Positions 6,170 through 53,869 of a stretch of 64,000 bases of DNA are shown here, one piece after another. Source of the DNA: Opitutales bacterium (GTDB lineage Bacteria > Verrucomicrobiota > Verrucomicrobiia > Opitutales > UBA953); contig JAFXKI010000006.1 of the NCBI GenBank assembly GCA_017531845.1, positions 1-64,000 of the forward strand, written 5' to 3'. A model generated the notes under the pieces. That model saw nothing but the letters and a program-made list of their open reading frames with translations, did not search any database and was not told where the DNA came from. Made by a program: the position numbers and the translations under genes. Position 1 is the first letter of the stretch; each line of letters starts with the position of its first letter.

Positions 6170-6374
6170 GCAAATTGAAATTTGCCGAAGTTTGCTTCCG
6201 CAAAAGTTGAAGAGTTGAACGGCTTAAAAGTTTAACCGGCTTTGTCGAGAGATTTACCTGTTTTTAGTTTAAAAAAAAGATTACACCTTCGTTTTGTTTG
6301 CAAAACGAATAAACTCTCTAGCACTTGAGCATTTAAACTAAATTGAAATTTAGCTACGGCAAATTTCAATTTTC
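6170..6374. repeat. MITE-like intergenic element, copy 1 (terminal inverted repeats)
   Basis: GCAAATTGAAATTTGCCG (6170-6187) is matched by its inverse CGGCAAATTTCAATTTTC (6357-6374), enclosing ~170 bp. Inside are word-like arms (AAAGTTGAAGAGTTGAACGG near 6204, inverse near 6320-6340) and a small hairpin around 6292-6308. Copy 2 at 12054-12261 has the same ends, almost the same length (208 vs 205 bp) and related arms. There is no coding capacity. The right end supplies the stop codon of metX. Mobility is inference; a structured-RNA role is equally possible. Confidence 0.65.
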
Positions 6375-12053: not shown

Positions 12054-12261
12054 GCAAATTGAAATTTGTTGCTCGAAACGAGCAACAAATGCTGAAAAGT
12101 TTAAGAGCTTAGAAGTTTAGTTGTTTCGTAAGCGAAACAAGGAAAAGAATCCTTTTTTTATTTTATAAAAGTAAAATTCTCGGCATAGCCGATTAAACCT
12201 TTCAGCTTCTCAGCTTTTAAACATTTAGCGAACGCCTTGCGTTTGCTAAATTTCAATTTGC
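12054..12261. repeat. MITE-like intergenic element, copy 2
   Basis: The ends are GCAAATTGAAATTTG (12054-12068) and its inverse AAATTTCAATTTGC (12248-12261). The inner left arm (12091-12128: GCTGAAAAGTTTAAGAGCTT then AGAAGTTTAGTTGTTTCG) is roughly inverted at 12191-12229. Small hairpins include GTTTCGTAAGCGAAAC and TGTTGCTCGAAACGAGCAAC. It lies between two divergent genes and occupies almost the whole gap. Copy 1 is at 6170 and a related partial copy at 27370. Confidence 0.65.
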
Positions 12262-26137: not shown

Positions 26138-26318
26138 TTCCGAAAAGCTTTCCGTTTTGCCCGGAAAAGGCAACGTTTAAAATAGAACGCCGCGAGTCCC
26201 GGAAATCTTCAGGAGCATTGAGTAAAAATTTGTTTTTTGTCGCTTCTTTCCGCGTGCAAGGGTTTCGGCGGAAAATTTTATTCGCGGGGAGGGGCGGGAA
26301 CGCGTTAGATTGCGCCGT

Positions 26319-26909
26319 ATGAGTTCCGAATTTAAAGAACCTTTTTCTGCGTACATTTTTGATTGCGACGGCACGCTTGCCGCATCGATGAAGTTGCACC
26401 ACGCTGCGTGGGAATATTCCGTGCGCCGCCAAGTCGGCGAGAACTGGGCGTTCCCGTGGGATTTTTTCTGCACGCTTGGCGGCATGAACACGGCGGACAC
26501 GATTGCGATTTTGGAAAATCGTTACGGTTTTAAAATCAGCATTGAAAAACTGCTTCCGGATTATCACGCGTATCTTGCCGAGCATATTTGCGAAGTGGAG
26601 CCGATTCCGGATGTTTGTGCCTACGCGAGAAAACTTGCCGCGCGCGGCGCAAAGCTCGCTGTCGCCTCGGGAGGTTTTCGTAAGGAGGTTCACGAGATTT
26701 TAAAAACTATCGGCGTGGCGGAGCTTTTCCCGGTGGTCATCACGTCGGAAGACGTTGCCAACTGCAAACCGGCGCCGGATTTGTTTTTGCTTGCGGCGGA
26801 AAAGCTCGGCGTTCCCGCGCGGGAATGCCTTGTCGTCGAAGACAGCCCGAAAGGTTTTGATGCTGCCGAAGCCGCCGGTATGGCGTGCATGATGGTTTAT
26901 CCGCAGTAG
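26319..26909 (+). CDS. HAD-superfamily hydrolase, beta-phosphoglucomutase-like
   Basis: 196 residues from ATG at 26319. FDCDGTLAASM gives the nucleophile and acid/base Asp pair (motif I DxDGT), VASGG is motif II, CKPAPDLFLLAAEKLGV motif III, and VVEDSPKGFDAAEAAGM motif IV with the Mg ligands. The helical cap after motif I (MKLHHAAWEYSV) fits beta-phosphoglucomutase or small sugar-phosphate phosphatases. Substrate unknown. Confidence 0.9.
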   Translation: MSSEFKEPFSAYIFDCDGTLAASMKLHHAAWEYSVRRQVGENWAFPWDFFCTLGGMNTADTIAILENRYGFKISIEKLLPDYHAYLAEHICEVEPIPDVCAYARKLAARGAKLAVASGGFRKEVHEILKTIGVAELFPVVITSEDVANCKPAPDLFLLAAEKLGVPARECLVVEDSPKGFDAAEAAGMACMMVYPQ

Positions 26910-26913
26910 AGAG

Positions 26914-26954
26914 AGGCTGAAGAGCTTAAGAGCTGAGAAGTTTAGTTGCTTCGC
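26914..26954. repeat. Left arm of the MITE-like element family, upstream partial copy
   Basis: GCTGAAGAGCTTAAGAGCTG plus AGAAGTTTAGTTGCTTCG nearly repeats the left arm at 27370-27402 and that of copy 2 at 12091-12128. No right arm follows before the four-helix-bundle gene. Confidence 0.65.
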
Positions 26955-26967
26955 CGGGAATTTTACT

Positions 26968-27339
26968 ATGGAAGAATTCAAGTTTAATTTTGAAAAACTA
27001 ATTGTTTGGCAAAAAGCAAGAACGTTGGCGAAAGAGGTATATACGGCTACGGAAAATTTTCCGGCGGAAGAACGTTTCCGTCTTGCGGACCAGATTCGGC
27101 GCGCCGGAATTTCCGTAGCGTCGAATATCGCAGAAGGCTCAAGCAGAAAATCGTTTAAAGACCAGGAGCGTTTTCTTGAAATCGCTTACGGTTCGCTCAT
27201 GGAAGTTTGCTGTCAGATGCAATTATCCGTGGATCTTGGTTTCATTTCCGAGTCTGATTTTGCTCGTTTTCGGGAACGTTTTCGGGAGATTTCCCGCTTG
27301 CTTGTCGCACTGAAAACAAGTTTGGCGAATCGGCAATAG
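26968..27339 (+). CDS. Four-helix-bundle protein (23S rRNA intervening-sequence/S23 family)
   Basis: 123 residues, complete. EKLIVWQKARTLAKEVYTAT, RLADQIRRAGISVASNIAEG and KDQERFLEIAYGSLMEV are the family signature. Homologues are encoded within intervening sequences of 23S rRNA genes in Leptospira and Coxiella and as free-standing genes in many genomes; biochemical role unknown. Here it stands outside rRNA, flanked on both sides by the same ~38-base repeat arm, as if the gene had entered the repeat element or travelled with it. Confidence 0.9.
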   Translation: MEEFKFNFEKLIVWQKARTLAKEVYTATENFPAEERFRLADQIRRAGISVASNIAEGSSRKSFKDQERFLEIAYGSLMEVCCQMQLSVDLGFISESDFARFRERFREISRLLVALKTSLANRQ

Positions 27340-27369
27340 ATGTGCACGTTCGGTGAATCCGACTTTGTC

Positions 27370-27492
27370 AAAAGCTGAAGAGCTTATAAGTTTAGTTGCT
27401 TTGCTTGTAGAAAAAGAATCTTGTTTTAACCATATAAAGGAAAACATCTCGGCTCGCCGACTAAGCTTTTCAGCTCCTCAGCTTTTAAACTT
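27370..27492. repeat. MITE-like element family, copy 3 (arms without the GCAAATT ends)
   Basis: Left arm AAAAGCTGAAGAGCTTATAA (27370-27389) plus GTTTAGTTGC. Right arm CTAAGCTTTTCAGCTCCTCA plus GCTTTTAAACTT (27461-27492), its rough inverse. The centre (GAAAAAGAATCTTG...ATATAAAGG...CATCTCGGC) aligns with that of copy 2. It lies just before trmL. Confidence 0.65.
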
Positions 27493-27501
27493 ACTTTCAA
27501 A

Positions 27502-27966
27502 ATGCTCCACCTCATTCTTTTTAATCCGGAAATTCCTCAAAATACGGGCAACATCGGGCGCATGTGTGCGATTACGCGTTCCCGCCTACACCTGATTCAT
27601 CCGCTCGGATTTACAATTACCGACGCGCATTTGCGCCGCTCCGGCATGGATTATTGGAAGTCGCTCGATGTCGTGCACCACGAAAACTGGGACGCATTTT
27701 TGGCGTTCCCGCAACGCCCGACGCGGCTTTGGCTGTTGACAACCAAGGCGGAAAAAGGGCTTTGGGACGCAGATTTTCGCGACGGCGACGGACTCGTTTT
27801 CGGCAATGAAGGTCATGGCGCTCCCGCGTGGCTCCACGATTTTATCGGGAAAGATTTTGAAATCAAAATCCCGCAACCTGCGGAAACTTTGCGTTCGCTG
27901 AATCTTTCCACTGCCGCCGGAATCGCCGCCTACGAAGCGCTCCGCCAAATCACACGCGGGAAATGA
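27502..27966 (+). CDS. trmL: tRNA (cytidine/uridine(34)-2'-O)-methyltransferase TrmL
   Basis: 154 residues, minimal SPOUT methyltransferase. LHLILFNPEIPQNTGNIGRMC is the N-terminal signature with the ribose-binding Asn; LVFGNEGHGAP and KIPQPAETLRSLNLSTAAGI form the knotted SAM site. It methylates the wobble nucleotide of some leucine tRNAs. Complete. Confidence 0.94.
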   Translation: MLHLILFNPEIPQNTGNIGRMCAITRSRLHLIHPLGFTITDAHLRRSGMDYWKSLDVVHHENWDAFLAFPQRPTRLWLLTTKAEKGLWDADFRDGDGLVFGNEGHGAPAWLHDFIGKDFEIKIPQPAETLRSLNLSTAAGIAAYEALRQITRGK

Positions 27967-35820: not shown

Positions 35821-35877
35821 AAAAAAAAACGTTCCCGCACGGCAAAAGCCGTTTTTCTGCGAGAACGCTTTTTTTTA
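35821..35877 (+). terminator. Intrinsic terminator with degenerate motif pair, after hisF
   Basis: An A-run plus CGTTCCCGC (35830-35838) pairs with GCGAGAACG (35859-35867; one changed base) followed by CTTTTTTTT. The inner hairpin ACGGCAAAAGCCGT is shared in style with the terminator at 53544. Confidence 0.88.
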
Positions 35878-43968: not shown

Positions 43969-43992
43969 CACAACGAATAGCCTATAGAAAAT

Positions 43993-44044
43993 AAAACGTT
44001 CCCGCGCGACGAAAGTCGGTTTTACGCGGGAACGTTTTGTTTTT
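43993..44044 (+). terminator. Intrinsic terminator of efflux operon 2, built from a motif pair
   Basis: AAAACGTTCCCGCG (43993-44006) pairs with CGCGGGAACGTTTT (44025-44038), then GTTTTTT. The inner CGACGAAAGTCG forms a second stem. Confidence 0.92.
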
Positions 44045-53524: not shown

Positions 53525-53543
53525 CCCTGCGCTCCCGTAACCG

Positions 53544-53593
53544 AAACGCGTTCCCGCGCGGCAAAAGCCGATCTTGCGGGAACGCGTTTTTTT
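53544..53593 (+). terminator. Intrinsic terminator of serA, built from a motif pair
   Basis: AAACGCGTTCCCGC (53544-53557) pairs with GCGGGAACGCGTTT (53576-53589), followed by TTTTT. The inner CGGCAAAAGCCG forms a second hairpin. The ~270 bp between this and the next gene are AT-rich and show nothing I can name. Confidence 0.93.
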
Positions 53594-53869
53594 GTATGTC
53601 GTCGCGGCTTTTCGCGAAACTTTTTTTTAATTTAAACTGAAATAGTATTGCTTAGTTTTCAATCCAAAGCGGAAGATCGGATTCGTATTGTTGATTTTCT
53701 TCTCTCTTTCCTGCAAACGAAAACGATTTTTTTTGAAAAAGTCTACTTTTTAGGTATTGCTTGTTGGCGGTTGGTCATAAACATTTTAATACAAATATTT
53801 CGAGTCTTGTGGCTCTTCTAAATACTCCACCAAGAATTGATTCCGGATTTTGGACAGGAGATTTGTGTA

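Follow-up and report, generated by a model that had tools for sequence, protein, structure and literature searches.

Inverted arrays of 7-8-nt units around 23S-intervening-sequence-type protein genes, in an operon junction of an Opitutales genome and across bacteria

The 64,000-nt stretch of Opitutales DNA analysed here (hereafter the window; assembly GCA_017531845.1, contig JAFXKI010000006.1, positions 1 to 64,000) carries, between a HAD hydrolase gene and trmL, a gene for a 23S rRNA-intervening-sequence protein (IVP) that stands between copies of a repeat. Is this gene the passenger of one intergenic repeat, as the first-pass annotation had proposed, or do gene and repeats form an element of another kind? 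Several descriptions of 7-nt repeats between genes exist, none of which names an agent, and rRNA intervening sequences (IVSs) are likewise unexplained; one architecture would join both, together with the S23 proteins, into a testable system. To our knowledge, the function of the S23 four-helix proteins is not known, and we know of no transposase or nuclease motif in the family.

The gene (26968..27339, 123 aa) lies on the forward strand, as do the neighbouring genes, the arms and the gene-less relatives described below. Profile searches assigned it to PF05635 (130 bits, cut-off 33.8) and TIGR02436 (119 bits), which bears out its initial reading as a 23S-IVS-type four-helix-bundle gene (S23/IVP). 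It is preceded by the HAD hydrolase gene (26310..26909; PF13419) and followed by a gene for a TrmL-like SpoU methylase (27502..27966; TIGR00185 / PF00588), with exonuclease and efflux genes also among the surrounding ORFs. All Rfam matches of the window were tRNAs, and the insertion site, at the HAD/trmL junction, is outside any rRNA gene.

The complete arm-gene-arm insert spans 26916..27490, and its right end is separated by 11 nt from the ATG of trmL. Its left outer arm (26916..26953) consists of 8-nt-type units, GCTGAAGA, GCTTAAGA, GCTGAGAA and GTTTAGTT, whereas most other IVP arms are built of 7-nt units. After the gene, a second left-type arm (27370..27403) opens an internal gene-less hairpin unit, and the right arm (27457..27490), reverse complement of the arm units, forms the outer right end of the insert. 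Within the window, AGTTTAGTTGCTT has exact copies at 26939 and 27389 and a copy with one mismatch at 12114 (0.05 expected), and GCTGAAGAGCTTA has exact copies at 26916 and 27374. The arm had been taken as simply duplicated around the gene: the repeats at 26916-26953 and 27374-27403 are there, with a right arm at 27457, but the left copy is no plain duplicate. It is chimaeric, its inner edge CTTCGCCGGGAATTTTACT matching, in reverse complement, what the gene-less relatives have on their right side (GGCTTCGCCGAGAATTTTACT), so that the two outer arms are mutually inverted. The complete element seen after the second copy was confirmed as a hairpin unit with 27-nt arms (27370-27396 / 27460-27486) that are 85% complementary. 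As for the insert as a whole, it has inverted terminal repeats, complementary ends able to close a stem, and a predicted RNA fold in which the left copy pairs with the right arm (z=-3.67).

With at most one mismatch, the core 13-mer AGAAGTTTAGTTG matches the 1.69-Mb genome 12 times and its reversed control once; the bracketing of a 0.4-kb gene by such a pair is therefore not due to chance, which answers the concern that a very frequent arm might flank genes fortuitously. Elements lacking the gene, which the first-pass annotation had suggested looking for, occur in the window itself, at 6206-6338 and 12091-12222. One belongs to a relative at 12054..12261, with the same arms at 12091-12128 and 12188-12222 and framed by GCAAATTGAAATTT / AAATTTCAATTTGC, and the other to a second relative at 6170..6374, with arms at 6206-6243 and 6304-6338. 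About ten gene-less copies of this arm type were found in the genome, many of them framed by GCAAATTGAAATTT. Considered by itself, GCAAATTGAAATTT is a frequent 14-mer (61 genome sites with at most one mismatch, reversed control 1; in the window at 6170, 12054, 12248, 19849 and 21564), which both ends the gene-less hairpin family and stands alone before genes.

The genome holds three other IVP genes, at atpA-atpG, at atpD-atpC and on contig C9, and each has its own inverted arms, made of GCTTAAA, ACTGATA and GCTGAGA units, respectively. Had the gene travelled with one repeat, all of them should be bounded by the same arm; the specific passenger claim thus fails by its own test, and a broader rule takes its place, namely that each IVP gene of the genome has its own inverted 7-8-nt array. 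Two of these other arm types, searched genome-wide as GCTTAAAGCTTAAAG and ACTGATAACTGATA, gave 27 and 9 matches (reversed controls, 0); they also recur without an IVP gene, in some cases as gene-less inverted pairs (L309, L314, L318).

Within the genus, the HAD-trmL junction is filled in G000, G002, G015 and G019 and empty in G007, G023 and G027, where 25-55 nt remain, with neither arms nor gene. Since both are missing together, the arms mark the limits of the insert. The gene does belong to an arm-bounded insert, as the passenger reading implied, but it is not tied to one repeat: three filled types with unrelated arms were distinguished (GCTGAAGA-type, GTTTAGT-type and AGTGGAA/AGTGGAGG-type, the gene of the last being frameshifted), and the orthologous IVPs of G015 and G019 at this junction have arms unrelated to those of the window. 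The short G007 spacer retains a CCACTTTCC stretch resembling the G015 right arm, a possible remnant that would fit loss by deletion. No target duplication was visible between filled and empty HAD-trmL sites, which have diverged, and no transposase was found in the element.

A similar exchange of blocks was seen at other junctions. Concerning atpD-atpC, ACTGATA arms accompany one IVP clade in G000, G002 and G019, and GAATAGT arms another clade in G007 and G015; despite these different blocks, G000 and G007 share 96-97% identity in the flanking DNA. Before a queE-like gene, TTCCGAA arms are present in G007 and AAGCATC arms in G015 and G019, with no IVP in G000, and in G023 the atpD-atpC and atpA-atpG junctions are both empty. 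At trmL and atpD-atpC alike, an arm matches the other arm of its own block and not the arms of the other block type, and IVP trees, which have few columns and leave many forks open, group by site. Arm and gene thus move as one allelic block, exchanged between species at fixed operon sites; block change by re-insertion and by recombination in the flanks are both compatible with these comparisons. Three two-sided arm changes at atpA-atpG weakly support both arms changing in concert in place. Among the IVPs compared, no near-identical pair with both flanks different, as expected of a recent transposition, was found, and at identities above 80% two IVPs almost always have the same flanks, which indicates that moves to new sites are infrequent or date far back. 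The initial suggestion that the locus hints at how these genes spread stays tentative: exchange of blocks is seen at fixed operon sites, but no recent jump to new ones was found.

The arms are not a peculiarity of this genus. S23 proteins, frequent in certain bacterial groups, are encoded in 42 of the 61 genomes of the organism's family, and the flanks of IVP genes from this and wider sets, mostly from draft assemblies, were scored for inverted repeats (cut at a score of at least 20), with other genes of the same loci, called by a simple gene finder, as control. A null built from mismatched IVP flanks had been dropped in favour of these control genes, because orthologs share arms. The cut was reached by 71% of 143 IVP genes vs. 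7.5% of 241 other genes (Mann-Whitney p=6e-42, indicative only, as orthologs within sets are not independent), and direct-repeat scores remained at background. The median score was 26 for the 54 IVP genes of the family set vs. 13 in control windows, and 21 vs. 12 for the 76 usable loci out of 80 drawn GTDB-wide, whose arm self-identity at lags 7/14/21 was 0.47/0.43/0.40 vs. about 0.25-0.28. In Gammaproteobacteria, 17 of 29 IVP genes scored at least 20, vs. 2% of control windows, with self-identities of 0.61/0.56/0.49 vs. 0.25 at the same lags. Readable arms were present in 13 of 13 plasmid IVPs (11 of them cyanobacterial), with units including GGAGTCA, GGGAACA, AAAGCTA, GGTGACA and GGGTGTA; the signal was weaker when all IVPs of six unrelated genomes were taken (14 of 28 at the cut). 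Approximately 29% of IVP genes fell under the cut, and some have no arm (e.g. L092, L154, L159, L258 and L272). Across phyla, then, IVP genes are typically bounded by inverted 7-8-nt tandem arrays.

Among 160 IVP arms, the period was 7 in 90, 8 in 27 and unclear in 43. Expectation maximisation over rotations of the units returned an "AG" core with an information content of 3.00; shuffled units scored nearly as high (mean 2.76, maximum 3.01), and no shared 7-nt motif is therefore claimed. An in-register unit order between the two arms (p<0.1 in 63 of 84 testable loci) was also set aside, being biased by the choice of arms through best alignment. Across the arms compared, the unit sequence varies freely between loci, with period and inversion kept.

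IVP genes are mostly co-directional with both neighbours (64/72 and 21/25, vs. 20/41 control genes), and in the approximately 50 nt on either side there is little beyond the arms. A block between co-directional genes would be co-transcribed with them. The junctions concerned include those of atp, cas, tra, trmL and queE genes, conjugation operons being also among the locations, and cassettes inside such core operons (ATP synthase, CRISPR-Cas, conjugation) may affect operon expression. In the CRISPR-Cas operons of cyanobacterial plasmids, IVP cassettes (L218 1495-1854, L219 1477-1845, L223 1489-1845) were observed at cas6-cas4 of type I-D and cas10-cmr3 of type III-B. The protein itself is under strong purifying selection, with a dN/dS of 0.02-0.13 in 14 pairs (0.02 for the window gene vs. 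its G002 copy). An S23 protein has been reported as a homopentamer (PMC4990558), and the solved relatives 2gsc and 2rld, with five chains per entry, are consistent with this.

We lean, with moderate confidence, towards the window insert being a cassette akin to the IVS of 23S rRNA but placed in operon junctions, with the inverted 7-/8-nt arrays as its ends at the DNA level. The two arrays would act as paired, iteron-like cassette ends; a ring-shaped, probably pentameric IVP would bind them with roughly one subunit per unit; and arrays and gene would be swapped together and, now and then, also inserted together, the gene-less inverted arrays being derivatives of such cassettes. The binding of the arrays by an IVP ring is a guess from their regular spacing and from the kinship of IVPs with Avd, and it raises a concrete question, whether an IVP recognises the array beside its own gene. 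As RNA, the insert is able to form a hairpin like that of an IVS, the gene being in the loop; in 23S rRNA this structure is excised by RNase III, and in operons it may be a side effect through which the insert is tolerated. More speculatively, and on the unlikely side, IVPs as a whole could be a class of mobile cassettes whose ends are recognised by the 7-8-nt spacing of the units in their inverted arrays, one subunit per unit, and not by any set sequence, and which, with their gene-less derivatives, gave rise to the heptamer families of many bacteria, rRNA IVSs being those that merely landed in rRNA.

An alternative that we regard as possible, if doubtful, places the function of the arms in the RNA: they would be selected to pair in the transcript, RNase III would cut the hairpin, release the IVP RNA and separate the host messages, and the IVP would bind the stem. 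The gene family and the heptamers are indeed those of the RNase-III-excised Coxiella 23S IVS, the cassettes are, from their orientation, presumably co-transcribed with the operons, and other elements fold as the window element does, with its outer arms paired. Selection for pairing, however, predicts an excess of G·U among arm mismatches in the sense orientation, and in 122 dereplicated arm pairs the counts were 191 for sense and 192 for antisense; moreover, an Rfam scan of 34 intergenic IVP loci found no rRNA match. In view of the missing G·U bias, DNA-level arms are favoured, either as paired cassette ends or as inverted copies arising from DNA processes, and the RNA hairpin is possible but secondary.

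It is also conceivable, but improbable, that heptamer arrays are a product of local DNA mutation (slippage and template switching) that accumulates in operon junctions, where IVP genes merely happen to be. The genome contains many arrays without a gene, both inverted and single, as the counts for GCTTAAAGCTTAAAG and ACTGATAACTGATA illustrate, one of these lies next to a pair of non-IVP genes in the atp operon, and heptamer repeats were described without reference to an IVP gene in Xanthomonas, Nostoc and Beggiatoaceae. Such an origin does not sit well with the rarity of two-sided matching arms at other genes (the 7.5% and, in gammaproteobacterial control windows, 2% given above), nor with empty junctions that lack arms and gene together. 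Finally, the capture of one IVP gene by a single intergenic repeat family, which the gene-less copies of the window arm had suggested, is refuted as a sufficient account and hardly credible, given the unrelated arms of the G015 and G019 orthologues at the same junction, the other arms of the three remaining IVPs and a rule that spans phyla.

The DNA-level cassette has several known counterparts. The 23S rRNA IVS with an S23p ORF shares the S23/IVP gene, the complementary ends, the heptamers by the start codon and the position inside a host RNA: in Coxiella burnetii, three to four tandem GACAGAT heptamers directly precede the S23 start codon, in copy numbers that differ between strains (PMC4990558). 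The cassettes described here differ by lying between protein genes of operons and by encoding a strongly conserved, not a decaying, protein. Heptamer repeats are represented by the cyanobacterial STRR, TAACTGA of Beggiatoaceae (PMC4679880) and GGGAATC of Xanthomonas, with many convergent inverted pairs (PMC4692102); like the IVP arms, they have 7-nt units, are intergenic, lie near start or stop codons and are often inverted, and the ACTGATA arms correspond to the TAACTGA heptamer itself. A text search of PMC4679880 and PMC4692102 found no mention of a four-helix or S23 gene, and no statement of a general IVP-array association was found in the open-access literature. MITEs and IS elements are comparable in that inverted repeats bound the block and gene-less copies exist; they differ from the present elements, in which no transposase and no target duplication were seen and the arms are short tandem arrays differing by locus.

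Avd, the accessory protein of diversity-generating retroelements, belongs to the same fold family, and the window gene has weak matches to Avd models, but neither a reverse transcriptase nor a template/variable repeat accompanies it. Eleven weak PF05635 matches in G321 were set aside, since the locus inspected is an Avd gene of a diversity-generating retroelement, and it has no heptamer arms. This 1.5-Mb gammaproteobacterial genome contains approximately ten near-identical Avd-like loci; in L286 (G321:C1:4200-8800), Avd is followed by a reverse-transcriptase-like ORF, in what looks like a diversity-generating retroelement.

A few further repeats were observed. In L066 (9502-11171), the atpG-atpD junction of G000 and G002 has an insertion of two genes, one DinD/Bro-N-like and one hypothetical, which G007 lacks; one GCTTAAAG array stands before the DinD-like gene, and no counterpart follows behind. 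In L318 (approximately 1380-1700), a gene-less GCTTAAAG inverted pair is located directly at the end of an apparent CRISPR array (repeat GTTTCAATCCGCGCTCCCGTGAGGGAGCGAC). As for the window, GCGTTCCCGC / GCGGGAACGC are very abundant in both coding and intergenic DNA (e.g. 26293, 26809, 35821-35876, 43988-44043 and 53540-53595), and their copies are sometimes paired as terminator-like hairpins.
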